From NCBI RefSeq assembly GCF_900637845.1, contig NZ_LR134439.1, positions 1,364,001 through 1,428,000 on the forward strand: a stretch of DNA of 64,000 nucleotides. Direction: 5' to 3'. The first letter of the stretch is position 1; each line of letters starts with the position of its first letter. The notes under the pieces were generated by a model, which made no database searches, was not told the DNA's origin, and worked only from the letters and a program-made list of their open reading frames with translations. Below are positions 3,490 to 34,208 of this stretch, piece by piece. A program made the position numbers and the translations under genes. The DNA is from Erysipelothrix rhusiopathiae. Its GTDB lineage: Bacteria; Bacillota_I; Bacilli_A; Erysipelotrichales; Erysipelotrichaceae.

Positions 3490-3576
3490 GCCCGAGTGGT
3501 GAAATCGGTAGACGCACTGGACTCAAAATCCAGCGAGGTAAAACTCATGACGGTTCGAGTCCGTCCTCGGGCACCA
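3490..3576 (+). tRNA. tRNA-Leu (anticodon CAA)
   Basis: An 87-nt class II tRNA. The acceptor GCCCGAG pairs with CTCGGGC, the discriminator is A and CCA is encoded. The anticodon stem CTGGA/TCCAG encloses CTCAAAA, giving anticodon CAA for UUG codons. A long variable arm (GAGGTAAAACTC) and the T-loop GTTCGAGTC are present. Foreign-looking DNA begins right after its terminator, so the 3' end is a plausible integration site, but I found no second copy of the tRNA end in the window. Confidence 0.97.
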
Positions 3577-3590
3577 TATGCATAAATACA

Positions 3591-4059: not shown

Positions 4060-4226
4060 CGCGAATATTGCAACATCCAGCAATCAAATACACTATTTTT
4101 CATTTTTCTTTAATTTAATGATTAAAGTTGAGACATAGATCTATATTGATGCAGGAATCTATAGGTTCTTGAATACATTTCATGTGTAAGTGCATGCATC
4201 AAAGAATTAAGAAAGAAGGGGTAATT

Positions 4227-4769
4227 ATGACGCAAAGAAGACGATTTCATGTTAGTGATGTGATTAATAGTACATTTTTTCAAGTTCCTAAATTTCTGTT
4301 TACAGATGAGTTTAAAGATTTAAATAGTGATGCGCGGTTACTTTATGCCATGCTAAAAGATAGACACGAGTTATCACTAAAAAACAGATGGTTAACTGAT
4401 GATGGGGAAGTATATCTCATCTATACGCGTGAAGAGATGATGCGCATGTTACAAGTCAGTAAACCTACAGTAATTAAAGCAATGGAAGCATTAAAAGAAC
4501 ATGGGTTGCTAGAAGAAGTAAGACAGGGATTAAGAAAGCCAAACTTATTTTTTATGTACATGATTGAAGATGAATACTTTCAATTTCCTAGTGATTCTTT
4601 AGACGATAAAGAGAAGATAGAAGAAACGAATGCTAATGAAAGAAGCACAAATAAGCGACTAAATAGTGGAGAAATCCCTGAAGTAAAGAATCTTTACCCT
4701 ATCTATACTGATAGTAATAAGACTGATATTTGGTATGGCAACACTTTTTTAGACAAAATCACTAGTTAG
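4227..4769 (+). CDS. RepA_N-type replication initiator, C-terminus replaced by IS sequence
   Basis: This is a replication initiator with the RepA_N DNA-binding domain, which binds iterons inside its own gene in theta-replicating Firmicutes plasmids and some integrative elements. The N-terminal 115 residues match well (FFQVPKFLFTDEFKDLNSDARLLYAMLKDR and a winged-helix part with YTREEMMRMLQVSKPTVIKAM). The ATG at 4227 follows GAAGGGG; the in-frame ATG at 4182 lacks a ribosome site. The IS copy inserted at 4736 supplies the last 11 codons. Removing the IS and one GTA repeat restores a frame that stops four codons later, so the longer C-terminal part of plasmid initiators was already absent. Probably a relic of a plasmid or integrative element. 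Confidence 0.75.
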   Translation: MTQRRRFHVSDVINSTFFQVPKFLFTDEFKDLNSDARLLYAMLKDRHELSLKNRWLTDDGEVYLIYTREEMMRMLQVSKPTVIKAMEALKEHGLLEEVRQGLRKPNLFFMYMIEDEYFQFPSDSLDDKEKIEETNANERSTNKRLNSGEIPEVKNLYPIYTDSNKTDIWYGNTFLDKITS

Positions 4770-5543
4770 TCTTTGTTGGTATTCGACTGGCCTCAAATAA
4801 CCCAGAGTCGAGTGAATGCGTTTGTGATTGAACCAATAAATGTATGTCGATAATTCTTCCTTTAACTCATCGAGACTCTCAAATGATCGTCTCCTTACAA
4901 ACTCTGTTTTAATAATCTTGAATGTGGCTTCCGCTACTGCATTGTCATTAGGTGTACCCTTCGCACTAAGTGATCGTGTAATCCCAAATGCTCCAAGCAT
5001 TTCGCCAATGCTGTAATTCTTGAACTCTGAACCTCTATCGGTATGAAAATATTTTATATTAGATAGATTTCCGCCTACTTTCGTAAAGGCATCCAGGACA
5101 AGAGATGGCGTTTTCCTTTCACCACAACTTGATCCAATTATTTCTCGCGCATGAAGGTCTAAAAGTATGCAAATATAATTCCAGTTATTCCCAACTCTTA
5201 CATAAGTCAAATCACTGACAACAACCTGCAACTTACTTCTATCATTGAAATCTCGGTTTACTAAATTTTCAATTTTTGATTCGTTGACATCAGATGAATG
5301 ATTTCGATACTTCTTTTTAGTATAAACTGACACCAGTTCATGTTTTCTCATAATTCTTGATATACTGCGTCGTGATGTATTTATTCTTTTTCTTTGAAGC
5401 TCAGCCCTGATTTTTCTACTGCCATATATCGAATGACTCTTATAAAATACATCAATAACTTCATCTTCAAAGTGATCAAACTCTTTTATCTTTGGCCTGT
5501 ATGAATAGATTGCGCTTCTTGCTACATTTAGATATTTACACAT
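4749..5543 (-). CDS. IS3-family transposase OrfB (DDE integrase core), copy A
   Basis: The 264-residue visible part starts at an internal ATG (MCKYLNVARSAIYSYR). The frame is open about 70 bases further upstream, as expected for a product normally made by -1 frameshift from OrfA. An HTH_21-like segment (IDVFYKSHSIYGSRKIRAEL) comes first, then the retroviral-integrase fold with D in VVSDLTYVRVG, D in FHTDRGSEFKN and E in NAVAEATFKIIKTE. It differs from copy B mainly in the first 80 residues and is nearly identical after that, a mosaic pattern that suggests recombination between copies. Confidence 0.93.
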   Translation of the reverse strand: MCKYLNVARSAIYSYRPKIKEFDHFEDEVIDVFYKSHSIYGSRKIRAELQRKRINTSRRSISRIMRKHELVSVYTKKKYRNHSSDVNESKIENLVNRDFNDRSKLQVVVSDLTYVRVGNNWNYICILLDLHAREIIGSSCGERKTPSLVLDAFTKVGGNLSNIKYFHTDRGSEFKNYSIGEMLGAFGITRSLSAKGTPNDNAVAEATFKIIKTEFVRRRSFESLDELKEELSTYIYWFNHKRIHSTLGYLRPVEYQQRLTSDFV

Positions 5544-5601
5544 TGAAGAAATTGAATATTTATCCGAATTATTACGTATAATCTCTATTTTCGTCCCATA
5601 A

Positions 5602-5910
<309 letters not shown>

Positions 5911-6017
5911 GATAATATCCTCTTTCTGTTATTTTATATTAACTAACAGATTTGTCTATAACATTGTAGCCGGTCCAGTATTTGTTTTAGCAAATCCAAT
6001 TGGATTGAAAGAGGTAA

Positions 6018-7304
6018 TTATTTGAAATCTATTTGACTAGAAATTTTAAATAATATTACGAAACAGAGGAGTATCCAACCTATAAAAACAAGATACCCTT
6101 GTAAAATTGGTGGAGAAAAGAAAGAACATAAGAGATGAACACAGTTTAGGTAGTAATATGGGGAATATGTTCCTAAGGGAGAATAGAAGGAAAATAAAAG
6201 AATTAATCCTGCAATAATAGTTGATTCAAGAAATAATTTATTGCTTTTTAACCACGATGTGTAAAGTAACATAACCAAAACAGTTAAGAATATGATATTA
6301 AGAATTATAAGAGGAATTGTTGCAAGTAAAAATATGCTCAGTTTAATAAATACTAAATTTTCAGAATAATAAATTGGATCAAAAAATTCTACCACATTGA
6401 TTCCTATAGCAGCAGTATCTTTTATGGTCGTTGTTTTGATTGAGTATGTAAACATCATTTTATGTAACTTTGATGAATCAATCATCATGTTCTTATTAAT
6501 TAATGTAGGAATCTCAAATTGCCACCCAAAGGTCAAACCATAATATATAGATAGAGAAGTTATCTGTATGATTACCAAGGACAGAACTATAAGTGATATT
6601 GAGATTATTTTACTTGTAAACAAAGAATTTCTCGAAACCGACTGCAAAAGTGTTGCATATATTTTACTATTACGATCTCTTCCGAATACAAAGAGTGAAA
6701 CTATTAGTATCATAAGGGGAAGAAAAACAGGTAATATATCTCTAATATAATTAAAAATAGAACTGGATCCAGTATTCTGATATGCTTTTATGGGGGTATG
6801 ATCGAGGGTCTTTCCATACATATTGACATATTGAGAGGATACTAAATAATCAAACGTTTCTAGGTCGATACCATGCATTTTTTCATGCGTGTTAATCTGA
6901 TAACCCCTATCATTAATCATCTGGTAAAGTAAATCGACTCTTTGAGCATAGTTTTCTTTTTCACCGTTGCTCATGGAATTATAGACATTTAACAAGTAAG
7001 TAAAATCAAATTTTTCCTGGTTCGTTAAATATTCGTCAATATTTTTATCTTGTATATTTTTAGTAATTTCAATATTATACTGATTAAGCTCACGATTCAA
7101 ATCATCATAGTCCTCAAAAAGCATCATAATAAATTCATTATTCATATGATAATCAAACCTTGAGTTGTTGTTAATATTACCAAAGTATTTATTTTCATAA
7201 CTATTAAGGATTGTTATGGATAATATAGTAAACAAAATAATAACAATATAAGAAAATGTATTCTTGTAGAAATTTATAAAGTCACTTTTTATTATATTAG
7301 TCAT
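6018..7304 (-). CDS. ABC-2 type transporter permease (second subunit)
   Basis: A 428-residue integral membrane protein. One segment lies near residues 19-38 (TFSYIVIILFTILSITILNS), followed by a large polar domain of about 160 residues outside the membrane. Five to six further hydrophobic segments start near residue 190 (ILPVFLPLMILIVSLFVFG). This is the plan of ABC-2 permeases of the drug, bacteriocin-immunity or sodium-efflux type. The ATG at 7304 is chosen because AGGTGGGAG precedes it; it starts one base after the stop of the gene upstream. With the next two genes it probably forms a self-protection or export transporter for the peptide made by this operon. Its 3' end abuts the IS. Confidence 0.8.
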   Translation of the reverse strand: MTNIIKSDFINFYKNTFSYIVIILFTILSITILNSYENKYFGNINNNSRFDYHMNNEFIMMLFEDYDDLNRELNQYNIEITKNIQDKNIDEYLTNQEKFDFTYLLNVYNSMSNGEKENYAQRVDLLYQMINDRGYQINTHEKMHGIDLETFDYLVSSQYVNMYGKTLDHTPIKAYQNTGSSSIFNYIRDILPVFLPLMILIVSLFVFGRDRNSKIYATLLQSVSRNSLFTSKIISISLIVLSLVIIQITSLSIYYGLTFGWQFEIPTLINKNMMIDSSKLHKMMFTYSIKTTTIKDTAAIGINVVEFFDPIYYSENLVFIKLSIFLLATIPLIILNIIFLTVLVMLLYTSWLKSNKLFLESTIIAGLILLFSFYSPLGTYSPYYYLNCVHLLCSFFSPPILQGYLVFIGWILLCFVILFKISSQIDFK

Positions 7305-7305
7305 G

Positions 7306-8406
7306 TTAACGCTCCCACCTAACTGTGACGAAGACATATAGTCCTACAAACCATAAACAAAATGCAAAGATTATATTATATAAAAAATACAAAGTATTTC
7401 CCGTTGACAGAAGTGCGTTACTTGGCAAAAAATTAAGTATTTCTATTTTTGTGATGGTAGTGTTTATGTAGAGTACAAAACAATATATAATAGAATAATT
7501 TAAAATAGAGTTTTTATTTTTTAGTATCAATCCAACTGTTGGACCAATCAGTCCGTTAATCAAAACTAAACCTAATAATTTTAATAAACCAATTCTAATA
7601 TGAACGATTTGATTTGAATTAAGAGTAACAACAGGGTACTGAGGATTTCCTAGTCCACCCACTACGTAACCAATAATAAATGATGAAACAATTAGAATTA
7701 TAAGATTCATAAAACAGAACACCAGACCCGTTATTGATTTGGAAATATATATTTTTCTTAAATTTGCACCTCTGCAATAATAGGTTTTGTATGCACCTGA
7801 CTCAAAATCATCACTTATAAAATCGGAAGAAAACAATAATATCAAAATTATTATTGCAACAATAAAGCCAGGGGATTCGACCATTTGATATAATAAATTA
7901 AAGCTATTTATTGAGTAAGGGGAATAGTAGGGCTTTATATTTCTTTCTATTAAAAGCTCGGTCAATTCTAAGTCATTATCGAGTTTATCTACCCATTTAG
8001 GGTTATTGATCATCACTTCGTCAAATTCTAACGACACACCGTGACTTTGTTCAATCAAAAAGTCTTTTGTATGATGGAGATCAGCCATGTTTTTAGATTT
8101 ATTATTGATGCTCATTTCATGTGTATAGATATATTGTCTCATTTTATTATAATAATTATTACGGGAATCCATTTCATCTTTAGAAATAACCCCTATTTTT
8201 TTTTGATTTCTATTGATGTCAATCAGTTTTTGATACTCTCTACTCAGGTTCTCATAATAATTATTTTCTGAACTTATAAATTGCTGTTCTTGTATAAACA
8301 TAAATCCCAAGAATACAGAAACAATTAAAAAACCCAAGAGAATAAAATAAATCATTTTCTTCTGCAATATAGATTTTTTTAATTCTAAAAGTATTAGTTT
8401 AGTCAT
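7306..8406 (-). CDS. ABC-2 type transporter permease (first subunit)
   Basis: A 366-residue membrane protein with the same layout as its neighbour: one membrane segment at residues 20-38 (IYFILLGFLIVSVFLGFMF), a polar extracytoplasmic domain of about 140 residues, then five hydrophobic segments starting with IVAIIILILLFSSDFI. The short motif SDFISDDFESGAYKTYYCRG after the second segment is typical of ABC-2 permeases. The start overlaps the end of the ATPase gene by eight bases, so the two are translationally coupled. The heterodimeric permease pair with one ATPase fits RiPP immunity transporters; the substrate is inferred. Confidence 0.8.
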   Translation of the reverse strand: MTKLILLELKKSILQKKMIYFILLGFLIVSVFLGFMFIQEQQFISSENNYYENLSREYQKLIDINRNQKKIGVISKDEMDSRNNYYNKMRQYIYTHEMSINNKSKNMADLHHTKDFLIEQSHGVSLEFDEVMINNPKWVDKLDNDLELTELLIERNIKPYYSPYSINSFNLLYQMVESPGFIVAIIILILLFSSDFISDDFESGAYKTYYCRGANLRKIYISKSITGLVFCFMNLIILIVSSFIIGYVVGGLGNPQYPVVTLNSNQIVHIRIGLLKLLGLVLINGLIGPTVGLILKNKNSILNYSIIYCFVLYINTTITKIEILNFLPSNALLSTGNTLYFLYNIIFAFCLWFVGLYVFVTVRWER

Positions 8407-9253
8407 TTTTATTACCTATAATATTTAGATATATGGATTCTAAATCAATCATTTTTTTATCAATATCTATGATAGTATTTTGTTCTTTAATTATTTTATT
8501 TATTGCACAGTCTAAATTTTCATTATCTGCTAAGGTCATTCTATAGGAATCGTGGTTAATTTTAGTTACATTGTATTCATTAAAAAAATCACTAGATTTA
8601 TTTTGTTTGCTTTTAAAATCAATGATCTTCTCGTATTGTGGGATGTTTTCCACTTCACCAAGAATTTTTCCATTATCAATAAAGACAAAACGATCAGAGA
8701 TTTTTGCGACTTCATCAAGTTTATGGGACGACAATAATATACTTGTGTTAAAGTTACTACGAATTAATTCCAAAACCTCTAAAAAATCTGTAATACCTTC
8801 GACATCTAATCCATTTGTTGGTTCATCTAGAATCAACAAATCAGGTTCGCTGAGTAAAGCAACAGCAAGACCAATTCGCTGTTTCATACCCATCGAATAT
8901 GTTGACACCCTTCGATCTAGATTACTTCCCAATTTAATTAAATCACTACAAAAGTCAATTCTTTCTTGTGTAACCTTCTTAAGAGATCCGAAAAAATTTA
9001 AATTTTGTCGTCCTGTTAGATCTAAATATACTCCGGGGCCTTCTATGACTGAAGATATACTGCAGTTGTAAGTGCAAACTGTGCCAGAAGAGGGATTCAT
9101 TAAGCTACACAAACATTTCATAAGTGTAGACTTTCCAGCACCGTTCGGTCCTAAAAGACCGACTATTTCTTTTTCTTTTATTGATAAATTAACATTATCC
9201 AATGCGATGTTATCACCGAAAATCTTGGACAAATTACTTATTTGTATGAGCAT
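8399..9253 (-). CDS. ABC transporter ATP-binding protein of the ABC-2 system
   Basis: A 284-residue ATPase energising the two downstream permeases. Walker A is GLLGPNGAGKSTLMKC (about 33-48), the signature is STYSMGMKQRIGLA (about 135), Walker B is LLILDEPTNGLD and an H-loop is in LLSSHKLDEVAKIS. The 80 residues after the nucleotide-binding fold form a C-terminal extension usual for CcmA or BcrA-type subunits. The ribosome site GAGAGGTGA supports the start. It begins one base after the ABC exporter gene ends, so it belongs to the same operon. Confidence 0.92.
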   Translation of the reverse strand: MLIQISNLSKIFGDNIALDNVNLSIKEKEIVGLLGPNGAGKSTLMKCLCSLMNPSSGTVCTYNCSISSVIEGPGVYLDLTGRQNLNFFGSLKKVTQERIDFCSDLIKLGSNLDRRVSTYSMGMKQRIGLAVALLSEPDLLILDEPTNGLDVEGITDFLEVLELIRSNFNTSILLSSHKLDEVAKISDRFVFIDNGKILGEVENIPQYEKIIDFKSKQNKSSDFFNEYNVTKINHDSYRMTLADNENLDCAINKIIKEQNTIIDIDKKMIDLESIYLNIIGNKND

Positions 9254-9254
9254 A

Positions 9255-10832
9255 TTAAATCACCTCTCTAAAAGTAGCCGAATCAATTATTTTATCAGCC
9301 ATATCTACAATTTCAGGATCGTGTGATACGATAATCAAGATTGAGACTTGAGAAATTCTTTTTAAAAAATTTCTTAACAAAGTTATAGAATTATTATCTA
9401 AACCTATTGTCGGTTCATCTAAAAGATATACTTTGCATTTTTCAGAGAAAACTATGAGAATTTCTACTTTCATTTGTTCACCAGTTGACATGCGAGAGTA
9501 CTGTTTACCGTTAATATCTTTATAAAATTTAAATAAAGTAGTGTCAGCAAAACAATCAGAGTCATTATATACTTTATCTAATATAGGGATAATTATTTGA
9601 TCATAATAGATGTCATCTATTCCTTCATTCTTAAGTAATATTCTTTTTTTTAACAACCAACTGTGACTTATAATTACTCCCTTATTTGGTGTAATATTAC
9701 CGTATATTAAATTTAAAAGAGTCGTCTTACCACTACCATTTTTTCCGTTAATCACGTAGATTTCACCGATTTTAAATGAATAAGAAAAGTCTTCAATCAG
9801 GTTATAATCACTTATATCGTATGAGCAGTCAACCAAACGAAGTTCAACTTTTTGATTGTTACATGAATGATTAATATTTTTTCTTTTGTGAACCACTGAC
9901 TTCATTATACAATTATTCTTAATTCTTTCCATTGAAATTATAACTTTTTTTCTTACTATCAAATAATTTAATATTGAAATCATAGATGAATTTATATATC
10001 CATAGTAACTCCCGTATTTATAAAAATCGCCAACCGTAAAAATAGAACTGTTTAAATTTTTTGCTAGTAGAAAATAGAATGAACAAGTCAAAATAACAGA
10101 TAGTAGAGTAAACACACGATCAGATAGTTGTGTTTTTAACTCTATTTCTTGTTCAGTTTTATAATATTTCTTTCTTTGTAATAAATAATACGAATTAAAA
10201 AATGCTGTGAGATCGTTTAATGTTGAGTGCCAGAGAGATTTAATTTTTGAAAATGCCACATCATTAATTGATTTTTGATTCCGTAGTGAATCTTTGTACC
10301 ATTTTTCTTCTTTTTTCATAATATATAATAAATATAATGAGTGAACAAGAACAGAAATTAAAATAAATATTAATAATTTAGAGCTAACAGATAAATAGTA
10401 TAGTAAACCAAAAAGCATAAGTGGCAAGTGTATCAAGATAACATCCATAAATTCTAAAAATGAATTGGCTAATATATGACTGTCTTCACTTATAAGTTGT
10501 AAGTATAGCATTTCGTCTGCATTTTTTTGACTTTCGTAAGATAACATATCATAGTTCTCGACTAGTGATTTATTAATGCATTCTATTATTTTAAAATATA
10601 AATTTTTTTGAAGCCAAAAAATTAATAAACCGATGAGAAGTGAAAGGATAGTTAGTAAAAGATACGCGATAATTTGTTTGCTAGAACCATGGTATAGCAA
10701 CTCATTAATAAACTCACCATATATTTTAGGACAGATTAGCAGTAAAAAGTAGTTACATATTTTTAGTAAAGAGATACCTGTAAAAAGAGATTTATTATTT
10801 TTGTAAATTTCCAAATAGAATTTATTAACCAT
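9255..10832 (-). CDS. ABC exporter with fused membrane and ATPase domains, probable peptide exporter
   Basis: A 525-residue half-transporter. About six membrane segments lie in residues 1-300 and a nucleotide-binding domain in 320-525, with Walker A VINGKNGSGKTTLLN, signature SRMSTGEQMKVEIL and Walker B VYLLDEPTIGLD. There is no N-terminal C39 peptidase domain, so leader removal, if any, must use another protease. It is the first gene after the precursor peptide and is separated from it by a perfect 18-bp hairpin. Its ribosome site is weak, consistent with lower expression than the peptide. Most likely it exports the modified peptide. Confidence 0.85.
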   Translation of the reverse strand: MVNKFYLEIYKNNKSLFTGISLLKICNYFLLLICPKIYGEFINELLYHGSSKQIIAYLLLTILSLLIGLLIFWLQKNLYFKIIECINKSLVENYDMLSYESQKNADEMLYLQLISEDSHILANSFLEFMDVILIHLPLMLFGLLYYLSVSSKLLIFILISVLVHSLYLLYIMKKEEKWYKDSLRNQKSINDVAFSKIKSLWHSTLNDLTAFFNSYYLLQRKKYYKTEQEIELKTQLSDRVFTLLSVILTCSFYFLLAKNLNSSIFTVGDFYKYGSYYGYINSSMISILNYLIVRKKVIISMERIKNNCIMKSVVHKRKNINHSCNNQKVELRLVDCSYDISDYNLIEDFSYSFKIGEIYVINGKNGSGKTTLLNLIYGNITPNKGVIISHSWLLKKRILLKNEGIDDIYYDQIIIPILDKVYNDSDCFADTTLFKFYKDINGKQYSRMSTGEQMKVEILIVFSEKCKVYLLDEPTIGLDNNSITLLRNFLKRISQVSILIIVSHDPEIVDMADKIIDSATFREVI

Positions 10833-10844
10833 AAGTAATTGCCC

Positions 10845-10887
10845 TAATTAATAGAACGCACTCGATTAAAGTGCGTTCTATTAATTA
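10845..10887 (-). promoter_or_regulatory. Perfect 18-bp hairpin between precursor peptide and exporter genes
   Basis: Bases 10845-10862 and 10870-10887 are exact reverse complements around a seven-base loop, and the stem includes the stop codon of the precursor gene. There is no T-tract, so it is more likely a partial terminator or an mRNA 3' stabiliser than a full stop. Such a structure would raise precursor mRNA relative to transporter mRNA, a common need in RiPP operons. Confidence 0.75.
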
Positions 10888-11073
10888 CCATGGGTCTCCT
10901 GTAACATATTGATTAGAAATATTTTTTGAACCAATATATTTATCCTGATTTAAGCGTGCCAAATTATCGCCCCACGTACTACAATTTGTACAACCTCTAC
11001 TTATACAAGAACAATTTGAAAGTAATGAGTTAATAGAAGAAGTACTTTGATTCGTTTTCTGTAGTTTATTCAT
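10885..11073 (-). CDS. RiPP precursor peptide with four cysteines (CXC-X4-CXXC)
   Basis: A 62-residue Ser/Asn/Thr-rich peptide with Cys at 21, 23, 28 and 31 (NCSCISRGCTNCSTWG) and a C-terminus ending in VTGDPW. It has no signal peptide and no double-glycine site. Its position between an acyl-carrier-related protein and an exporter, in an operon with a radical SAM/SPASM maturase, identifies it as the likely substrate of thioether or similar crosslinking. It resembles the Cys-rich precursors associated with the clostridial CcpM maturases. The start overlaps the upstream gene by eight bases and has an excellent GAGGAGGTGA ribosome site, which suggests strong translation. The modified residues are not known. 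Confidence 0.85.
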   Translation of the reverse strand: MNKLQKTNQSTSSINSLLSNCSCISRGCTNCSTWGDNLARLNQDKYIGSKNISNQYVTGDPW

Positions 11074-11335
11074 AATTCACCTCCTCTCCATTTAAATTGT
11101 AAACTCTATTTACAATTTTTTCTAAAGTTGATAATCCATAATTCCGATAATCCTCTAATGAAAAATTAATATTAAAATGGTTTTCAATTATTTTGATTAG
11201 GTAAAATAATTCTGATGGTGATAAATCATTATTTTTGCCTAACAGAGAAGATTTATAATCTATGTTTCGATCTTTAATGATATGATTTTGTAACATTAGC
11301 CCTAAAATTATATCGTAAATGCTTCTATGTTCCAT
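11066..11335 (-). CDS. Acyl-carrier-related peptide maturation protein (TIGR04069-like)
   Basis: An 89-residue protein with the helical layout of acyl-carrier proteins (SPSELFYLIKIIENHFNINFSLEDYRNYGLSTLEKIVNRVY). The usual D-S-L phosphopantetheine site is not evident; the closest position reads YGLSTLEKI. It therefore probably acts as a structural or leader-binding partner rather than a carrier of thioesters. Proteins of this kind (ocin_ACP_rel) accompany CcpM-type radical SAM maturases in clostridial Cys-rich peptide loci. It has an AAGGAGGAAC ribosome site and is coupled to the precursor gene by overlap. Confidence 0.75.
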   Translation of the reverse strand: MEHRSIYDIILGLMLQNHIIKDRNIDYKSSLLGKNNDLSPSELFYLIKIIENHFNINFSLEDYRNYGLSTLEKIVNRVYNLNGEEVNYE

Positions 11336-11349
11336 ATGTTCCTCCTTGG

Positions 11350-12345
11350 TTAATCAACTTTCAATTTATTAACAACACTTTTAGCTAGTTTTTCATAAGT
11401 TTTATTCACGTAAACAAAATTTTTATTGCAATCGGATTCCTTCTCGAATTCTATAATATAGTCATGGCTTACTCTAAAACAATCTCGATTGGAAGAATCA
11501 AAAACTGGTTCATCATTTAGTAAAGAAACATTATTTTTTATATGGAAATCAATAGCGTAACCAAATCTTGATCTGTTAAATTTTTCAAAATTATCATTTT
11601 CAACCTCTAATATATAAGAGGAGCAAAGAACTGAGAAATCACAAGATAACGAGTATGATAAAAGATAATTATATACACCCAGATCACCAATAAGTTCATC
11701 ACTTACTTCGCTGTAATTTCCAGGTATAGTCAAGATAATTAAGTCAGGGTTTTCTTTATTTTCTATCCAATTAATCCAGGATGTTAGATAACTTAACCGA
11801 AAGTCAACTGGACTTCTCCAATCAAAGAAAATATCAGGATAAATATAAGATTTTAGAATAGCTGATTCTCTCAAATCTGTAATAATTATTGGATTTACAT
11901 CCAATCGTTCAAGTTGAATTTTAAGTTTGTTAGCTATGTAATATTTATCGAAAGAATCACCTAAATCAGATATAAATAGTATAGGAGTTTTAATTGGCGT
12001 TAATTTAATATAATCTTGAAAACTAAATTTTTCAGTAGATTTATTAATGATATTCATAATATAACTTTCATCAATATATTGAGAAGTTGGCAAAGTCATG
12101 TAATTAATTTCTGAAGAGCGTAAGATGTTGTTCTTATCAATTATACAGTCGAATTTTTCAAATTTAATATCATCAAAATTACAATTGGTAATCCCAATAG
12201 GTGGGAAATTAAGAAGAATCGAAATATCGTCTTCTCCTAAACCATATTTCAAATCACATACAACAAATAATTCATTACCTTGATCATGTAAATTTACTAT
12301 GACAGAGTAATCTTTTTTTGTTGCAGAAAGATATAAAATTTTCAT
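11350..12345 (-). CDS. Peptide maturation system protein, TIGR04066-like
   Basis: A 331-residue cytosolic protein. The N-terminal 110 residues look like a substrate- or nucleotide-binding half (MKILYLSATKKDYSVIVNLHDQGNEL). A second domain starts at about 130 with TPILFISDLGDSFDKYYIANKL, which resembles a P-loop-less nucleotide or cobalamin-type fold. It matches my memory of the TIGR04066 partner found only with clostridial Cys-rich peptide maturases; its reaction is unknown. It overlaps the maturase gene by four bases (ATGA). A fragment of a second copy lies on the other strand at 13935-14108. Confidence 0.75.
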   Translation of the reverse strand: MKILYLSATKKDYSVIVNLHDQGNELFVVCDLKYGLGEDDISILLNFPPIGITNCNFDDIKFEKFDCIIDKNNILRSSEINYMTLPTSQYIDESYIMNIINKSTEKFSFQDYIKLTPIKTPILFISDLGDSFDKYYIANKLKIQLERLDVNPIIITDLRESAILKSYIYPDIFFDWRSPVDFRLSYLTSWINWIENKENPDLIILTIPGNYSEVSDELIGDLGVYNYLLSYSLSCDFSVLCSSYILEVENDNFEKFNRSRFGYAIDFHIKNNVSLLNDEPVFDSSNRDCFRVSHDYIIEFEKESDCNKNFVYVNKTYEKLAKSVVNKLKVD

Positions 12346-13730
12346 AGTAAACCTCTCGTTGAAAGTTCTCTAATAATGCAAACAGTAGCTAAATTATTAA
12401 CAAGATTATTTTTTATATATCCACAAGACTCGCCATATCCGTCATAATTACATAAATCTTTATCAGAACAAAGCGCAATACAATTGGAACAATAATTTAA
12501 AGCGAAACAATTTTCGCATTTTTCATAAAAACTGCTATTAAATCTATATAGTTGATTCACCTTATTATGGTCAATATCTGTATAAACACTTCCTAGTTCA
12601 GTTGAATGATTTTCCATTACCTTTTCACACGGATGTAAATCCCCGTCAACAGAAACAAACATTCTAGTTTTTAGAGGGATGCATTGGCCCGTAGTGTTGA
12701 TTTTTCCTTTATGAGGTATACCAGAATAAAGTTGGAATTTTCTTAAAAATGTTAATAAATCATTTTTATAATTTTTCATTAATACTAGGTATTGGTGAGG
12801 GAATTCTATTTCTGTAAATATATCGATAAGAACTAAAAATTGGAAATATTTGTACTCTTCAATAAAAATTTCACTCTGGGAATAGCTGATATCCAGGCCT
12901 ATTTCAGAAACTATCGAAGCATTTACACCAATATCTTTAAATATGTACATATTGGATTGAATAAAATCTTGGTATTCTGTAAATGTATTATCGGGAGTTA
13001 ATACCATATTGATACTTAAATAACGATATAAACAGGGATAATCTTTTTTTATTAACTCTATTTTATCAATAACCCTTTTGAATACTCCGAGATGTCCATT
13101 AGAAAATTTTCTATTGCGATCATTTATATTTTCTGGCCCATCAATACTAATCATGAGCCTAAAATCATTAGTATCTAGGAATTCTAAGATGTTCCGAGTT
13201 AATAGCGTTGCATTTGTAGTCATATGATATGAAACATTTTCACCAAACATTTTGTTCCCAAATTCAACTGCTTCTTTAATTAGCTTAAAATTAAAAATGG
13301 GCTCTCCACCATAAAATGCTATATTTTTATTATTACAATCTCTAGAGTGTTGAGCATAGAATAGTATGCTTTCTCTTGCAGTTTCAACTGTCATATTTAA
13401 ACTGTTATTATGGCTTCTTGTGAAAGTATTCTCTTGACTATAGGGACAATAAGAACATCTTAAATTACAACCTTGAGTGACTTGTAAAGTTAGCTGAGAA
13501 ATTTGTCTGTTTAGAATTTCTTTGACTAACATCTCATCAGTAGAAGGAGCACATTTTCTTTGAAGAACCGACATATTCTGGAAACTGTTGATAGATTCAT
13601 TAATTTGAGAAGTTGTAATATTTAATGAACCTATTTTAGTTATTTCATCAAAGTCAGAGTTATAGATATACGTGCTACCAATGGTCTTCAAAACAATTTT
13701 TCTAAGCATAACATTACTTGGAATTTTCAT
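12342..13730 (-). CDS. Radical SAM/SPASM peptide maturase (CcpM-like)
   Basis: A 462-residue enzyme that uses S-adenosylmethionine and iron-sulphur clusters to modify the precursor peptide. The cluster motif CNLRCSYC gives Cys 88, 92 and 95, and GGEP follows in FYGGEPIFNF. The C-terminal SPASM region has many cysteines (GQCIPLKTRMFVSVDGDLHPCE, then KCENCFALNYCSNCIALC and a final GESCGYI) for two auxiliary clusters. The first 80 residues probably form the peptide-recognition domain. This is the promoter-proximal gene of the operon, with GAGAGGAAC as ribosome site. Related enzymes make thioether bonds from cysteine to other residues; the exact bond type here is unknown. Confidence 0.9.
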   Translation of the reverse strand: MKIPSNVMLRKIVLKTIGSTYIYNSDFDEITKIGSLNITTSQINESINSFQNMSVLQRKCAPSTDEMLVKEILNRQISQLTLQVTQGCNLRCSYCPYSQENTFTRSHNNSLNMTVETARESILFYAQHSRDCNNKNIAFYGGEPIFNFKLIKEAVEFGNKMFGENVSYHMTTNATLLTRNILEFLDTNDFRLMISIDGPENINDRNRKFSNGHLGVFKRVIDKIELIKKDYPCLYRYLSINMVLTPDNTFTEYQDFIQSNMYIFKDIGVNASIVSEIGLDISYSQSEIFIEEYKYFQFLVLIDIFTEIEFPHQYLVLMKNYKNDLLTFLRKFQLYSGIPHKGKINTTGQCIPLKTRMFVSVDGDLHPCEKVMENHSTELGSVYTDIDHNKVNQLYRFNSSFYEKCENCFALNYCSNCIALCSDKDLCNYDGYGESCGYIKNNLVNNLATVCIIRELSTRGLL

Positions 13731-13778: not shown

Positions 13779-13807
13779 AATATATGCCACCTGATATCAG
13801 TTGTCAA
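13779..13807 (-). promoter_or_regulatory. Promoter of the RiPP operon
   Basis: On the minus strand: TTGACA, 17 bases, TATATT. A perfect -35, ideal spacing and one -10 mismatch make this one of the strongest promoters in the window. It serves the whole block 13730 to 6018. Confidence 0.8.
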
Positions 13808-13934: not shown

Positions 13935-14108
13935 ATGAAGGAAATTAAGTACATGACTATGCCACCTTCACATTATATTGATGAAAGTTATATTATAAAT
14001 ATCATTAATAAATCTACTGAAAAATTTAGTTTTCAAGATTATATTAAATTAACGTCAATTAAAACTCCTATACTATTTATATCTGATTTAGGTGATTCTT
14101 TCGATAAA
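13935..14108 (+). pseudogene. Truncated second copy of the TIGR04066-like gene
   Basis: 58 codons are nearly identical in DNA and protein to residues 80-136 of the intact gene at 11350-12345 (YIDESYI.NIINKSTEKFSFQDYIKL.. shared), but lie in the opposite orientation. Sequence similarity starts abruptly at 13937 and ends exactly at the IS border (14109). The rest of the gene is not on the other side of the IS. This is a relic of a second, diverged RiPP cluster or of an IS-driven inversion or duplication. Confidence 0.85.
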
Positions 14109-14175
14109 TGGACCGGCTACAATGTTATAGACAAATCTGTTAGTTAGTATAAAATAACAGAAAGAGGATATTATC

Positions 14176-14484
14176 ATGGAAAAAAGAACAAGAAGAAAAT
14201 TTACTGATGAATTTAAAACACAAATTGTGAAATTGTATCAAGGTGGAAGATCTGCAGGTGACCTTGCGCGCGATTACGATTTGAATGAACAGCTGGTGTA
14301 CCGATGGGTAAAACAACAGACTACTTCAGGATATTTCAAAGCTGCTGTTAATAGAACTGACGAAGAAAATGAACTTATAAAGCTTCGAAAAGAAAACCAA
14401 CAGTTAAAAATGGAAAATGATATTTTAAAGCAAGCAGCGCTGCCTCCTGTACTCTTCGAGTTTTGGGGCATAGTAGTACATTGA
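14176..14484 (+). CDS. IS3-family OrfA, copy B
   Basis: 102 residues, differing from copy A in only two positions (SGY for SGS, FWG for FRG). It has the helix-turn-helix at 13-47 and the coiled coil at 64-89. The 41-bp extra segment is at 14443-14483 in this copy. Without it OrfA would end in KQAALIMGRK, matching the KQTALIMPRK end of the related decayed IS further right. An AAAATAG slippery run sits just downstream. Confidence 0.9.
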   Translation: MEKRTRRKFTDEFKTQIVKLYQGGRSAGDLARDYDLNEQLVYRWVKQQTTSGYFKAAVNRTDEENELIKLRKENQQLKMENDILKQAALPPVLFEFWGIVVH

Positions 14485-14542
14485 TTATGGGACGAAAATA
14501 GAGATTATACGTAAGAATTCGGATAAATATTCAATTTCTTCA

Positions 14543-15337
14543 ATGTGTAAATATCTAAATGTAGCAAGAAGCGCGATCTATTCATACAGGCCAAAGACAA
14601 AAGAAATCGATCAATTTGAAGATGAAGTTATTGATGTATTTTATAAGAGTCATTCGATATATGGCAGTCGTAAAATTAGAGCTGACCTTCGAAGAAATGG
14701 AATCAATACATCACGACGCAGGATATCAAGAATTATGAGAAAACATGAACTGGTGTCAGTTTATACTAAAAAGAAGTATAAAAATCATTCATCTGATGTC
14801 ATCGAATCAAAAATTGAAAATTTAGTAAACCGAGATTTCAATGATAGAAGTAAGTTGCAGGTTGTTGTCAGTGATTTGACTTATGTAAGAGTTGGGAATA
14901 ACTGGAATTATATTTGCATACTTTTAGACCTTCATGCGCGAGAAATAATTGGATCAAGTTGTGGTGAAAGGAAAACGCCATCTCTTGTCCTAGATGCCTT
15001 TACGAAAGTAGACGGAAATCTATCTAATATAAAATATTTTCATACCGATAGAGGTTCAGAGTTCAAGAATTACAGCATTGGCGAAATGCTTGGAGCATTT
15101 GGGATTACACGATCACTTAGTGCGAAGGGTACACCTAATGACAATGCAGTAGCGGAAGCCACATTCAAGATTATTAAAACAGAGTTTGTAAGGAGACGAT
15201 CATTTGAGAGTCTCGATGAGTTAAAGGAAGAATTATCGACATACATTTATTGGTTCAATCACAAACGCATTCACTCGACTTTGGGTTATTTGAGCCCAGT
15301 CGAATACCAACAAAGACTAACTAGTGAATTTGTCTAA
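14543..15337 (+). CDS. IS3-family transposase OrfB, copy B
   Basis: 264 residues from the internal ATG, with an intact DDE triad (VVSDLTYVRVG, FHTDRGSEFKN, NAVAEATFKIIKTE). Residues 18-80 carry about ten changes against copy A; the remainder is almost the same. Translation presumably depends on frameshifting or coupling from OrfA, because no ribosome site precedes the ATG. Confidence 0.92.
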   Translation: MCKYLNVARSAIYSYRPKTKEIDQFEDEVIDVFYKSHSIYGSRKIRADLRRNGINTSRRRISRIMRKHELVSVYTKKKYKNHSSDVIESKIENLVNRDFNDRSKLQVVVSDLTYVRVGNNWNYICILLDLHAREIIGSSCGERKTPSLVLDAFTKVDGNLSNIKYFHTDRGSEFKNYSIGEMLGAFGITRSLSAKGTPNDNAVAEATFKIIKTEFVRRRSFESLDELKEELSTYIYWFNHKRIHSTLGYLSPVEYQQRLTSEFV

Positions 15338-15350
15338 AAAAGTGTTGCCA

Positions 15351-15886
15351 TAACAGATACTAATGATTAAGTTATAATTGATATTAATCCATAAAAAATA
15401 CTTGAATGGCAAACATCTGATATAATAAAGAAGGGTTCATAATTCAACAGATAACCTAAGTAGGTGTGGCTATTGTGATAGAACTCGTCACTCTTTTGAA
15501 TAATTAATAAACTTTTAATTTGGTAGAATGATATTAGATATATGTAATTACTTAATGGAGTTCTTCTTAATTAATACAGGAATCAATCCTTAAATTTAGC
15601 AGATAATTTGATTGTCCAAGATTTGGGGTTAGTTCATAATCGTACAGACTTTTTTTTATTAAACAGAAAAAACCGCACCTTCGGTGGTGCGGTTGAGATT
15701 TAAATTTAAGAATTCTACCGATATATAAATGTTATAAGTAGAGTTTGCTACTCCCACTCAACTACATAAAATCTTTCATTAACCACAAATTACCCATTTC
15801 AAAGCCTATTTTAATATCACTTTTCTCTGTATTCTCACGATTATCTTGTTTCTCAAAGTTTTTGACATCATTTTGATATCACTTGT
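15351..15886. other. Gene-free stretch with decayed sequence
   Basis: 536 bp without a supportable gene. On the minus strand, about 15886 to 15764, a 38-codon open stretch ends in GFEMGNLWLMKDFM and stop. It reads like the C-terminal tail of a protein but has no start, so it may be a remnant. A minus-strand terminator lies at 15667-15694. The junction with the IS at 15350 shows no target duplication. Confidence 0.5.
15667..15694 (-). terminator. Intrinsic terminator, minus strand
   Basis: AACCGCACC pairs with GGTGCGGTT around a six-base loop, followed on the minus strand by a T run. It would end transcripts coming from the two minus-strand genes at 15.9-18.7 kb. Confidence 0.8.
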
Positions 15887-16525: not shown

Positions 16526-18709
16526 TTATGTATTCTTACGATTTTCAATAATATTCATTAGATCCTCAGCTACAAATTTCAAACGTTCGGTACCAACATC
16601 AATAAGTGGCTCATACATGAAACTATTAACATGAATAAAAGATGGCGCGATAATTCTGGAACTTTCTATTACACTGATTTCTTCAGGTATAAGTTTATCT
16701 TTTATTCCATCATACAACTTTGATGAATAGTGACTATCAAAAGAAACACTTGGTATATTTTCTGTATATAGAAGATATGAATCATATAAATACTTTTCAG
16801 AAAAAACTCTTAGAAATATTCCTAGTATTAATTTTTCCTTAATGCTAGTTTCTTTGAGAGTATCGTTTTTCAAGATAGATTTAACCTCATTTTCTAATGT
16901 ATCAATATAGTTCAGGTTATTATACTCAGATTTTTTCGTAATGTTGTATCTAGAGTAAAGATTATCTAAATCATCCAATAACAATTGATCACTTGTATCA
17001 GTATAATGAAGATACTCTGTGCACTTAATATAATCAGGGTCCGTGGCATTTGATTGCAACTGAACCAAGTTTCTTGCTAAAGGAATAAGTGCAATTAATG
17101 AATTTAATTTTTTATCATTTTTCCAACCATTAAAATAGCTATAATCAAACAATTGCTTGTTTTTGGCTTCATATAATACCACGCCATTTTGGTCTTTATA
17201 GGCCAGTATTTTTGAATTCAAATTATCACATGAAATAGAAACAGATCTGAAAAAGTCATAGTTATGAGTTAAAATAATTAACTGAATTTTATCACTTGAT
17301 TGTAATTCTCTAATATACTCAATTATTGCATACTTGTTCTTATAATCAAACGAGTCCGCTACATCGTCAAGTAAAACGATAAAAGGGCTATTATTAGATT
17401 TCATTATTTCAATTTGAAATATCATATTTAGAATAAAAATACTTCTTTTTTCTCCACTACTAAATCTTGTGAAGACAGAATCGTCAACTGGAATACCACT
17501 TTCTCGCACTGAGAAATTAAATGTTGGTAACATTCTTCCAATCAAGGCATCAGATCTGTTTGAAATACTTACATCAAATGTTCCACTCCAAAATCTCTTA
17601 TTAAATATTTCAATCACACTGTCCCAAATCGTACTTTCATTGTTCGCCTCATCAATAATAATATTAATATTATCTTTTGATTCATTAAGTGCATCTTTAA
17701 TTTCTATGATTTCAGTTTTATAATCAAACAGTTTTGAATAAATAATTCTATCTCGCAAAAAAACAGGATCAGAGAAATCGTTAATTATCGTCTTATCACC
17801 CTGTACAACAGTTAATAATTTTCTCGTATCTCTATTTTTGTTCAATGCTTTTTTTATGCTCGAAAACTGTGTCTCTACATCAGTATCTTCATAGAGATCC
17901 TTAATTGTTTTTTCAATTAATAAATCAATATCTTCGCTTTTATATTCAACTTCGTTCAGTACCACTTTATGTCCTGCATCAAAGAACTTACTGATCTTTA
18001 GGTTCTTATTTACATTAACAAGTTCATCAATTCCAAATCCTTCTTTAAAAATAAACTCATCAATTTTTTTGTTAACTTTTTCTAAATATAAGGTACAACT
18101 TTGTGCAAAATTATCATTCGAAAATAGTGCTTGCACGCTATCGTTGTTGAAATCGTTAAACGATAGTTTGTTGTATTTTTCCAATTCATGTTCATCTTTT
18201 TCAAACCTTAAAGTTAAATTAGATATTGATTCTACAATATCCTTGCCGGGATAAATCGTTCTGATCAAAGATTCAGTTTTTGAAGTTCCTCGTTTTTCTT
18301 CAGTAACATTAGTTGAATATAACTCCAAAATTCTTGATATATATGCTTTGACTTTCTCAATTTCCTTTGTGTATTTTTTTCTTAGATCACTTGACATCAC
18401 TAATTTCGCTATATCAGGAATAGAAAAAATATCATTACCTGTTAATTCAGAATCGAAGACTACTACGTCAAGTTTCTTAACAGAAGTTGAATCATATTTC
18501 TCGCCATTATACTCAATTGATATATTTGCTTCCAAATTATTAAACAAATCTTTTGGATTCAAACCGTTTTTCAAATCAATGAATCCATCCCTGAATGAAG
18601 ACTTCATTACTCCATTTGGAGCATAAATTAGGGTGTTCTTTTTGATCAATTCAGGGTTAGTCAGCTTTTTTATTCCGTACACATTATCAAATTTTTCAAT
18701 CTTTAGCAT
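16526..18709 (-). CDS. AAA/SMC-like ATPase with unusual Walker A, putative defence protein
   Basis: 727 residues with ABC/SMC-type ATPase parts at both ends of a coiled central region. Walker A is YAPNGVMKSS (29-38): the first Gly is Ala and the Gly before Lys is Met. I recall this variant from defence-island ATPases of the AAA_13 type. The signature SSGEKRSIFIL, Walker B PFIVLLDDVADSFD and the H-loop LILTHNYDFF follow near 420-500. The 220-residue C-terminal part is helical and of unknown function; RloC- and PrrC-type proteins carry a nuclease there, but I cannot see a clear nuclease motif. It has its own GAGGAGG site. Phage defence is inferred from architecture and context. Confidence 0.75.
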   Translation of the reverse strand: MLKIEKFDNVYGIKKLTNPELIKKNTLIYAPNGVMKSSFRDGFIDLKNGLNPKDLFNNLEANISIEYNGEKYDSTSVKKLDVVVFDSELTGNDIFSIPDIAKLVMSSDLRKKYTKEIEKVKAYISRILELYSTNVTEEKRGTSKTESLIRTIYPGKDIVESISNLTLRFEKDEHELEKYNKLSFNDFNNDSVQALFSNDNFAQSCTLYLEKVNKKIDEFIFKEGFGIDELVNVNKNLKISKFFDAGHKVVLNEVEYKSEDIDLLIEKTIKDLYEDTDVETQFSSIKKALNKNRDTRKLLTVVQGDKTIINDFSDPVFLRDRIIYSKLFDYKTEIIEIKDALNESKDNINIIIDEANNESTIWDSVIEIFNKRFWSGTFDVSISNRSDALIGRMLPTFNFSVRESGIPVDDSVFTRFSSGEKRSIFILNMIFQIEIMKSNNSPFIVLLDDVADSFDYKNKYAIIEYIRELQSSDKIQLIILTHNYDFFRSVSISCDNLNSKILAYKDQNGVVLYEAKNKQLFDYSYFNGWKNDKKLNSLIALIPLARNLVQLQSNATDPDYIKCTEYLHYTDTSDQLLLDDLDNLYSRYNITKKSEYNNLNYIDTLENEVKSILKNDTLKETSIKEKLILGIFLRVFSEKYLYDSYLLYTENIPSVSFDSHYSSKLYDGIKDKLIPEEISVIESSRIIAPSFIHVNSFMYEPLIDVGTERLKFVAEDLMNIIENRKNT

Positions 18710-20140: not shown

Positions 20141-23100
20141 ATGCAAACTTCAGAAAACAAACCAAAAAATTTTGATAATATAATTGAGAAAAGAAAAAAA
20201 CTCTTGGATGTATATCCTAATTCAAATAAAGATGATTATGATAAGTATGAAGAACAATTAAATCTTGTGTTTTCTAATGAAGAAATTAATACTACTGCGA
20301 TTGTTGGGGGATATGGTACCGGAAAAAGCACACTCATTAAAACACTAGAAAAAAATAAAAAACTAAAATTTTGTTATATTTCAGCACTTCCTTATTCATC
20401 AAATGTGAAACAGAAAAACCACATTGAAGATGACGAAAGTAAACTTGATTCTGATTGTAATAGTGGGATTGCGTTAGAGAAAAAAATAATTGAGCAAATC
20501 TATAATCAAGTTTCTAACAGATCCAACCAGAGACTTGACTATTTTCTGTATCCACTCTTTTCACTATGTACACTTGGAATTGCTATCGTTTATTTTTTAG
20601 GACCAAGGATTGAAAATATAAAATCTTTTTGGAGTACCCTTAGAAATGCTATAACTATAAAGGCAATACCTATATTGCCTGAATCAACCGTCATACTATT
20701 TACTTTCTCAGTTTTGTGGATTCTTTACTCGATTTATGTTTTGATTTCAACTTCAAACTTTTCGTCAATAATAAATCGAGTTAAAATTCCGTCGATCGAG
20801 GTACAACTTAGTCAACATGATGTTGGGTTTGATAGAGTAACGACAGAATTAATAAGACTATTATCCAAATCAAATTTTGATGCTGTGATTGTTGAAGATT
20901 TAGATCGATTTATGGATAAGGGTGTTATTTTTCAATTAAGAGAATTTGCTAATTTATACAATAGAAGCGCAATGCGCAAAATGAAGTTTATATTTCTCTT
21001 AGACTTTAGTACTATCGATGATGAAAAACTAAGAGCGAAGTTTTTTGACCATTCCATAAATGTTGTCCCATATATGAGTTACTCGTATTCTTATAGTTAT
21101 GTTAAAGAAATTCAAAAACTTTGTGAAGATTTAGGAAACTATTCATTGACTCACGTTTCGGATGGACTGATAAGGATTTTAACAAATTGCATTCATGAGT
21201 CTAGACTACTAAGAATAATTATATCTGACTATATATTTCTATCTGAATCCTATTATGGAGATAAAATTTCAAAACTTGGTTTGGAAGATCAGGAGAGAAC
21301 AAAAATTGAAGATTTATTGCTTTCGCTATCAATTTACAAACATATTTTCACACAAGATTACAACAGTTTTTTAGAAGGTAATGGCAATCTGCATAGCCTT
21401 CTTATAAAAAATGAGAACGAACAAACAGCTAAATTAAAAACAAGTAATGAATCTTATGAAAAAAATATTGATTCAGCAAAGAAAGATATTTTAAATGATG
21501 AGAAAGAAATATTATTGGTTGAGACTTTTAAAATTTCAGAACCAAATTATTTTAATGATTCTGAGCTAAGTAGTTCATATGGATATATTTATAATCGTCA
21601 TTTTAAGGATGTAATGCAATCGCAAAGTTATAAAACGCGAATCAAGTTCTTAAATTCTAATTATGAAAAATATATTGCTGATCTAGAGGAAAAAATTAAT
21701 TCTAATATGATGAAAATATCTTATTACGTTCCAGAAGGAGATAATGAACTTAAAATAGAGTGGTCAGAAAATACGAATTATAATGAAGTAATCGGGGAAT
21801 TACTCTTTAAGGGCTATCTAACTTCAAAAGTAAGTATATATATAAGCCATAGAAGTGATGATTTAACTCCTGAAGAGACATTTCTAGTTGAACAGGCTAT
21901 TAGTAATGATACTAGTATCGACCCAAGCATTAAAGTGAATGAAGAAAATATTCCAACCATCATGTCTTTAATCAATAATGAAAAATTTGAAACATCAAAG
22001 TTGTTTAATTACAATATGATGAATTTTTTTAGAGAAAGAAAACAATATATTTCACAATATAAACAGATGGTAATTAATCTAGAAGACCAAATTAAGAGAA
22101 AAAAACCACAAATGGCAATAGAGTTCTTTTCATATGGATATTATGGTATGGCAAAATATAGTAATGATATTTATAAAATAATGTTACAAGATTGTGAATA
22201 CTATTCTGAAGAGTTTATTAGTGTTATGTTCAATAATTTTGATTCCAAAGAGATGGGTTTTGCCAATACAAGTTATTACTTATTTCTAGCGTTATTAGCT
22301 ACTAAGAGTTTAGATGATATACTTAAAATTGATTCTTTCGTAAGCTTTGTTAACAATATGTTTGAAATTAAGTCATTAGATTCACTTATCGATAGAACCA
22401 TCAATTTTGGTCAAGAAATAAATGAGATTGAAAGAAAGTTCATGCTTCTTGTTGCATCTGATAAAATCAGAATAAAATTTGAACGATATTTCATCGATAA
22501 CCCAAGTGTCTTATTTAAAAAAAGTTTAACTCAATATAAAGAAACACTAAAACAAAAAATTGAGAAACATCAATTTAAGAATAGTCATAGATTGATGCAA
22601 TTAATGTTTTTTTATCCTGATTCCGAGGATGCTTTATATTTAAATCTAAAATTAGATAAAGAAAACGAGAGAAAAATGATTGACTTTATGTTGGAAAATC
22701 CTATAGAAACTAGAGATAGTCTGATTGTTGGACCTAGACCCATCGATACAGATAAAAGTATTAGATTCTGGATTAATAATAAAAGTCTTAATGAGTATGA
22801 TTTTGAAGAACGTTTGATTAATAATTTGGGTCTTAAAGAATCGCTTGTAATATTTGATTCAATCGAGAACTACTCAACTGAGAGAGTTCCATTACAGTAT
22901 AAGGATATGTTTAGAAGAGATGCAAATTCCGAATTTATTCATTGGTTTGATGACTTAAGTAAATTAAATGAAGAGGTAGTCGAGGAAGTTATAACTAGAA
23001 ATTTATTTAAAATAAATCAACCAAATATTGACTATATTGTTAATTTATTTTTAGATAGTGAACCCAATAAACCAATGCTTGAATTTTTGTCAACATATGA

Positions 23101-28668: not shown

Positions 28669-28863
28669 GTCATTTAAGAGTAAAACGACGATTAAAAAAT
28701 TTCCGTATCTAATTTAATACTGGGGTATAAAATGGAAGTATTATATGCAATAATCTAAATATTTCCTAAATATAATCGTGTCTCTAATACGAAATAGCGG
28801 AGTAAAATAAAGGCTTTTTTTGTGTTATATTTTATGCGTACACAAAAGAATAGGAGGATGATT

Positions 28864-29292
28864 ATGAGAAAAGCATTTTGTGTATCGGTTTTTTTGATTT
28901 TTACGATGGTGTTAGGAAGTATCGTTGATTTATCCGTCCAAGCGAATGAAGCTGCTGGACCAACGGACTATAATTGCTATTATTATGGTTTTGATGGTCG
29001 TGCAAATAGAAGAAGAGCGATAGTTTCAAGTGTTGTTGATAAAGAGACGTATAGCCCAAGTGGTATTGAATGGGATTATTCGTCTTTAAAAGGTCTCAAC
29101 ATGTTCTTTTCGATTCATAATTCTAGAACGGGTAAGGAACAAAGAGAGGTTCTTTTTATGAATCATGACTCGGGTTGTTTTACAATAACAAATACCAATA
29201 CAAAGAGAGGAACTCAATATGATCTTCGGGCTCGCAGACAAAATATATGGGATAGTGGGTATACACAAGTTTCGGGATCTTGGAGACCGTAA
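28864..29292 (+). CDS. Secreted two-cysteine protein, copy 1 (candidate bacteriocin-like effector)
   Basis: 142 residues. The signal peptide spans about 1-27 (KAFCVSVFLIFTMVLGSI, cleavage likely after VQA). A mature protein of about 115 residues has two Cys (NCYYYGFDG and DSGCFTI), probably forming one disulphide, and ends in VSGSWRP. I start at the ATG at 28864 behind AGGAGG; the ORF start at 28822 lacks a site. It is not a recognised family, though the size, secretion and ABC neighbours recall lactococcin-972-like proteins. Its paralogue at 33760 has an almost identical signal region but a more divergent mature part. It heads a four-gene unit with two membrane proteins and an ATPase. Confidence 0.75.
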   Translation: MRKAFCVSVFLIFTMVLGSIVDLSVQANEAAGPTDYNCYYYGFDGRANRRRAIVSSVVDKETYSPSGIEWDYSSLKGLNMFFSIHNSRTGKEQREVLFMNHDSGCFTITNTNTKRGTQYDLRARRQNIWDSGYTQVSGSWRP

Positions 29293-29320
29293 GACTTTAA
29301 AATAGGATAGGAATTGTAAT

Positions 29321-33510: not shown

Positions 33511-33759
33511 ATTTGTTAATAGAATTATTCTGTTATTACATTGGGTTCTCAGGACTTTCACTTGAGCATAACAAAGAGAAAAGTGTGCTTGAATTCTAAA
33601 AAATATGTACTTTTGATATTAAACTGAATAGATTTATTCTATGCAATTAATCGAATATCTCCTTAATAATAGAATGAAATTCCTACGAAAGAGCGGAGTA
33701 AAAAAACGCTTTTTTTTATGATATATTTTATGCGTACACAAATGAAAAGGAGGGTGGTT

Positions 33760-34188: not shown

Positions 34189-34208
34189 ATGAAGTGATGA
34201 TTGATAGT

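Follow-up and report, generated by a model that had tools for sequence, protein, structure and literature searches.

A mobile, deeply diverged CcpM-type operon of Erysipelothrix rhusiopathiae, probably encoding a cysteine-crosslinked peptide

Do eight tightly packed genes of Erysipelothrix rhusiopathiae, found in a 64,000-nucleotide stretch of contig NZ_LR134439.1 (positions 1,364,001 to 1,428,000; hereafter the window), form a pathway for a ribosomally synthesised and post-translationally modified peptide (RiPP), and what would such a pathway do in this host? An earlier note, made from the sequence alone, had read them as a complete operon of the CcpM type. The operon is real, foreign and divergent, and, judging by its sequence, probably functional. 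We consider it probable that this mobile, deeply diverged CcpM-type operon makes and exports an antibacterial peptide crosslinked through its cysteines (by thioether bonds) and protects its producer. The results obtained directly are homology, gene order, the intact cluster cysteines, the folds, the separability of a three-gene transport module and the mobile context.

The operon has not been catalogued so far and is only distantly related to known clusters. Through it, a RiPP class that has hardly been characterised gains a new host family, in a branch too distant for present models to name. Being compact, it is suited to asking what the TIGR04066 and TIGR04069 proteins do.

Gene content and relatives

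All eight open reading frames (ORFs) lie on the minus strand and run leftward from 13730 to 6018; they are open, intact and tightly packed (start/stop overlaps or short gaps), as the earlier note had described, and most of them have a plausible ribosome-binding site. The single promoter that it had placed ahead of the operon is matched by one sigma-70-like sequence upstream of the first gene. In the direction of transcription, the features are as follows.

13779..13807, minus strand: predicted operon promoter, sigma-70-like (TTGACA-17-TATATT, 11/12; a consensus match only)
12342..13730, minus strand: radical S-adenosylmethionine (SAM)/SPASM maturase, CcpM-like, 462 residues (equivalog model TIGR04068, E 3.5e-98, 329.5 bits against a cut-off of 500)
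11350..12345, minus strand: TIGR04066-like accessory protein, 331 residues (TIGR04066, E 2.2e-18, 66.4 bits against a curated cut-off of 200)
11066..11335, minus strand: acyl-carrier-protein-like (ACP-like) protein, 89 residues, without the phosphopantetheine serine (TIGR04069, E 1.3e-5, 25.6 bits against a cut-off of 70)
10885..11073, minus strand: precursor, 62 residues (20-residue leader, CSC-ISRG-CTNC, 31-residue cysteine-free tail)
10834..10886, minus strand: strong RNA hairpin with a 19-bp stem in the gap between precursor and exporter (-27.9 kcal/mol, z -7.25)
9255..10832, minus strand: ATP-binding cassette (ABC) exporter with fused membrane and ATPase domains and without a peptidase domain, from family model matches
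8399..9253, minus strand: ABC-2 ATPase of the trio (TIGR03740, lantibiotic-protection ATPase, 181 bits, below cut-off)
7306..8406, minus strand: ABC-2 permease 1 (PF12679)
6018..7337, minus strand: ABC-2-like permease 2, without a family match (translation start probably at about 7304)

The comparison with TIGR04068, TIGR04066 and TIGR04069, which the earlier note had proposed as a check, gave a divided answer: all three matches are significant, and all three lie below the curated cut-offs, so that strict membership of these families fails. We nevertheless regard three significant matches to three families of one system as an argument for the proposed pathway. Another is the gene order. As a single-sequence query the maturase found no matches in the genome and viral collections; relatives (79) were obtained only when genomes were scanned with an alignment of maturases. 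The order maturase-TIGR04066-TIGR04069 is conserved among them; a TIGR04066-type gene accompanies the maturase in 76 of the 79, and most also carry an ACP-like gene. Because the three genes in the window stand in the order of nearly all relatives, the arrangement is more than chance, and in the broad sense (maturase gene first, then a TIGR04066-like and an ACP-like gene, with a cysteine-rich precursor) the operon belongs to the CcpM-type systems. Homology and gene order thus bear out the RiPP logic first proposed.

The host lineage is as unusual as had been supposed: a sample of 195 further genomes of the host family showed no convincing TIGR04066 gene. The statement that the class occurs mainly in Clostridium did not hold: relatives were found in Lachnospiraceae, Oscillospiraceae, Paenibacillus, Spirochaetota, Chloroflexota and Desulfovibrionaceae. 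None of the plasmid records contained a TIGR04066-like match, and the plasmid matches to the maturase proved to be other RiPP systems, e.g., of the Apre_1838 and huazacin types. Three records of human faecal origin with the label Bacteriophage sp. (L012, L013 and L014) contain CcpM-type operons; they resemble bacterial contigs or phage-carried operons.

Maturase

The maturase retains all ten cluster cysteines, three of the radical SAM motif (CX3CX2C) and seven of the SPASM domain, which are invariant in all 73 aligned sequences; it is thus a radical SAM/SPASM enzyme. The family profile aligns, from profile position 5 (E 9.1e-54), to the best relative in the PDB, CteB (5wgg), which contains a RiPP recognition element (RRE). 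Both results speak for the proposed pathway. In the maturase tree the enzyme diverges basally in the CcpM group, next to that of Tissierella pigra, on a long branch (1.48); support at the base is limited (SH-like approximate likelihood-ratio test only), and long branches may account in part for the basal position that the two share. Among other loci, the T. pigra enzyme (L039) scores 426 bits with TIGR04068, and those of L016, L021 and L036 exceed the cut-off.

Precursor peptide and proposed pathway

The 62-residue peptide with the pattern CXC-X4-CXXC, noticed at the outset, is present as described (C21-S-C23-ISRG-C28-TN-C31). A profile of 53 precursors of relatives, built without the window sequence and searched against 510 window ORFs, found this peptide as the only one under the inclusion threshold (E 2.4e-4), and none of 2000 shuffles reached its score. 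We therefore take its detection to be more than chance and, as an independent find, a further argument for the pathway. In the family the first cysteine has a median offset of 20 and the cysteine-free tail a median length of 29; the window peptide, with 20 and 31, agrees with both. The four-cysteine type is not new, contrary to the first account, since five of the 53 curated relatives have four cysteines and two have three.

The only long intergenic gap of the operon, 52 bp between precursor and exporter, contains the hairpin, which is likely an attenuator or mRNA stabiliser. The exporter aligns to the model of peptidase-containing transporters only from position 147, past the peptidase part, in agreement with the claim that it has no peptidase domain.

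Substrate binding, bond chemistry, export, immunity and antibacterial activity are what we infer from these data. The maturase would bind the precursor at its MNKLQK-type leader, through an RRE-like domain at the N-terminus of the enzyme, the TIGR04066-like and ACP-like proteins perhaps assisting. It would most likely form thioether bonds from Cys21, 23, 28 and 31, or from some of them, to residues of the cysteine-free tail (up to four bonds, with 2 Da lost per bond). The product would be secreted by the peptidase-less ABC exporter, with a host protease cutting off the leader or trimming taking place outside, while the ABC-2 trio would protect the producer. The hairpin would let the precursor be made in excess over the exporter and the trio.

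Several results weigh against such a pathway. The N-terminal leader-binding (RRE-like) domain of the maturase is shortened, and shorter than in most relatives. The match of the precursor profile is modest (16 bits), and TIGR04065, the model of the CLI_3235 precursor, which covers the leader and the region of the first cysteine (cut-off 26 bits), gave no match to the peptide up to E 10. As to the leader, no dedicated protease was found, the operon having no S8 subtilase; in the host genome there is no C39 peptidase, and the only S8 protease lies in a 1542-residue frame far from the operon. An S8 subtilase stands beside at least 27 of the 47 relatives with enough context, as found with a strict profile that replaced an iterated one, which had over-collected. 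Finally, the trio could serve for general resistance or as a second exporter.

ABC-2 trio

Together with its upstream edge (window 5978-9273), the trio recurs alone, at 97% DNA identity, in a sister-species genome (G109), where it lies at L113 8336-11601 beside unrelated genes. The ATPase there is 97% DNA-identical and permease 2 is 96% identical, no TIGR04066 gene was found in that genome, and for a core gene adjoining the island protein identity to G109 is no more than 84%. By this comparison the trio is a separable module, and its stand-alone copy is as expected of transferable immunity or resistance. The copy counts in favour of the proposed pathway, strengthens the earlier proposal that the trio protects the cell, and offers a natural experiment: apparent immunity without production.

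The strongest alternative, though we consider it rather unlikely, is that the trio does the actual exporting, or pumps out peptides in general as a means of resistance, instead of serving dedicated immunity, and that the ABC exporter has another role. The G109 copy without biosynthetic genes would agree with this, as would a T. pigra locus (discussed below), where the ORFs read show only ABC-2 genes and no peptidase-less type I exporter; however, a separate ABC exporter directly follows the precursor in our operon, and the ATPase of the trio has its nearest counterparts in kind among ATPases for lantibiotic protection and drug resistance.

Mobile context

To the first account our analysis adds the hairpin described above, an inverted pair of insertion sequences (IS), a duplicate of part of the TIGR04066-like gene and a tRNA-borne island.

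4727..5977, minus strand: IS3-family element, left copy (1251-nt inverted arms, 98% identical to the right copy)
14109..15359, plus strand: IS3-family element, right copy, inverted relative to the left one
13941..14109, plus strand: 169-nt inverted TIGR04066-like remnant that stops exactly at the IS (162/169 identities with 11943-12111)

The operon, bounded by the two IS3 copies, has a GC content of 28%, against 37-39% in the flanking core DNA; elsewhere in the genome no near-identical copy of these elements occurs. Since the 96%-identical remnant abuts the right IS, a second closely related TIGR04066-like copy once existed. A gene for a RepA_N replication initiator (window 4182-4769), apparently interrupted by the left IS, suggests plasmid-derived DNA. 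Synteny with the sister species ends at 3577, one base past tRNA-Leu(CAA) (window 3490-3577); on this evidence the boundary marks an integration hot spot, with the operon inside a low-GC island that starts there. A second copy of the tRNA 3' end (attachment repeat) was not found within the window. A clean composite transposon was considered and rejected: neither IS has matching target duplications at the inner or outer ends, and because of this we claim only IS-mediated rearrangement.

Such a context raises the question of decay. The cluster might have arrived with the insertion sequences, lost its protease and persisted mainly for the trio, i.e., for resistance without production. The IS pair, the truncated second TIGR04066 copy, the interrupted RepA_N gene, the lack of a protease in the operon and the lone trio of the sister species would all fit; still, we regard decay as unlikely, in view of the eight open ORFs, most with plausible ribosome-binding sites, and the intact metal-binding cysteines of the enzyme.

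Elsewhere in the island, an ATPase gene (window 16526-18709) matches the PADLOC candidate defence family PDC-S46 (E 6.3e-133), and a large YobI-like P-loop NTPase (PF20693) is encoded at 20141-23701. Two near-duplicate cassettes (28822-31530 and 33718-36418) each contain a small secreted peptide, presumably resembling lactococcin 972, and three ABC-2 genes; a gene for a C39-like secreted protease (31889-32503) lies between them.

Nature of the product

A signalling or metal-binding peptide in place of a bacteriocin seems doubtful to us, about as much so as decay. The CXC/CXXC pattern could bind metal, and ranthipeptides with signalling roles have been reported; on the other hand, competition is suggested both by the protective ABC-2 module and by the lactococcin-972-like cassettes of the island. 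SacP23, a peptide of the same class encoded by a cluster of Paenibacillus polymyxa #23, was antibacterial after expression in B. subtilis (PMC10731318). This active product of a related cluster and the hairpin after the precursor gene are further reasons for preferring a crosslinked antibacterial peptide.

Accessory proteins

The AlphaFold model of the TIGR04066-like protein (pLDDT, the confidence score of the program, 80.5; residues 81-96 and 101-104 of low confidence) has the two-domain fold, Rossmann plus P-loop, of DUF1611 proteins. It matches them over nearly the full length (Ava_3511, 2obn, Z 14.6 over 274 residues; TM0796, 2g0t, Z 14.0) and DgcN (7xrj) with Z 12.6; an independent sequence-profile match to 2g0t (E 8.4e-5) agrees with this. 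Unlike in the DUF1611 proteins, the P-loop is not intact: GTDCVVGKRT aligns to G-x6-K-F in TIGR04066 proteins, where the lysine is kept in 50 of 71 and the second glycine and Ser/Thr are lost. Because of this degeneracy, a binding or scaffolding role appears more likely than hydrolysis of nucleoside triphosphates, while DgcN-like transfer to the peptide N-terminus is conceivable from the model.

The ACP-like protein has the ACP fold by both profile and AlphaFold model (pLDDT 91; Z about 12) and, as first noticed, no phosphopantetheine serine: the column holds proline here, and proline or alanine in 44 of 59 family members. Classical acyl carriage is therefore unlikely. That a protein with a DUF1611/DgcN-like fold is encoded next to a serine-less carrier protein offers a testable clue to what the two families do.

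We consider it improbable that the two proteins modify the N-terminus of the peptide, by acylation or another kind of capping, to give a hybrid acylated thioether peptide. In favour of this, the TIGR04066-like protein matches DgcN (N-acetyltransferase in its PDB title), its gene adjoins that of an ACP-fold protein, and the N-terminus of SacP23 was blocked in Edman degradation (PMC10731318). Against it, the acyl-carrying serine is missing, the P-loop is degenerate, a common fold proves no function, and thioether crosslinks or cyclisation can likewise block Edman sequencing, so that the block is compatible with DgcN-like transfer and equally with crosslinking. Just as improbable is the wider version, in which the pair, catalytic or scaffolding, would add a second modification such as N-terminal acylation, and the operon would be a minimal, protease-free hybrid pathway.

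Comparison with known systems

CteB, the thioether-forming maturase of SCIFF, likewise has an N-terminal RRE followed by radical SAM and SPASM domains; to our knowledge, it acts on a different precursor and without a TIGR04066 or ACP-like partner. With the CcpM/TIGR04066/TIGR04069/CLI_3235 systems of NCBIfam the operon shares the kinds of enzymes, the gene order and a cysteine-rich precursor with a KL-x-K-type leader. It differs from them in three proteins that score below the cut-offs, the failure of TIGR04065, the lack of an S8 protease, the presence of the ABC-2 trio and the deep basal branch.

The SacP23 cluster has TIGR04068, TIGR04066 and TIGR04069 genes, a cysteine-rich precursor and an ABC exporter in common with our operon, but it also carries a subtilase and a sigma-factor gene, and no ABC-2 trio is listed in it (PMC10731318). 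Its TIGR04066 protein was read as immunity (PMC10731318); the DUF1611-like fold modelled for our protein does not support this role, though it may still apply.

The nearest match in gene order is the locus of Tissierella pigra (L039/L117), where a maturase (32% identity), a TIGR04066-like gene and a four-cysteine peptide are followed by ABC-2 permeases and an ATPase; that ABC-2 genes of the same kind stand in this position also argues for the proposed pathway. A T. pigra permease is 26% identical to permease 1 of the trio (E 3e-14), and the ATPases of the two loci share 38% identity. Homology to the 440-residue T. pigra permeases was considered for permease 2 as well; as the profile comparison was not significant, our claim is restricted to the ATPase and permease 1. 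The T. pigra locus likewise falls below the TIGR04068 and TIGR04066 cut-offs. It differs in that no ACP-like gene or type I exporter was recognised among the ORFs read, and in a striking amplification: six tandem ABC-2 permease genes, 66-85% identical, follow the four-cysteine peptide (L039 3796-11966).

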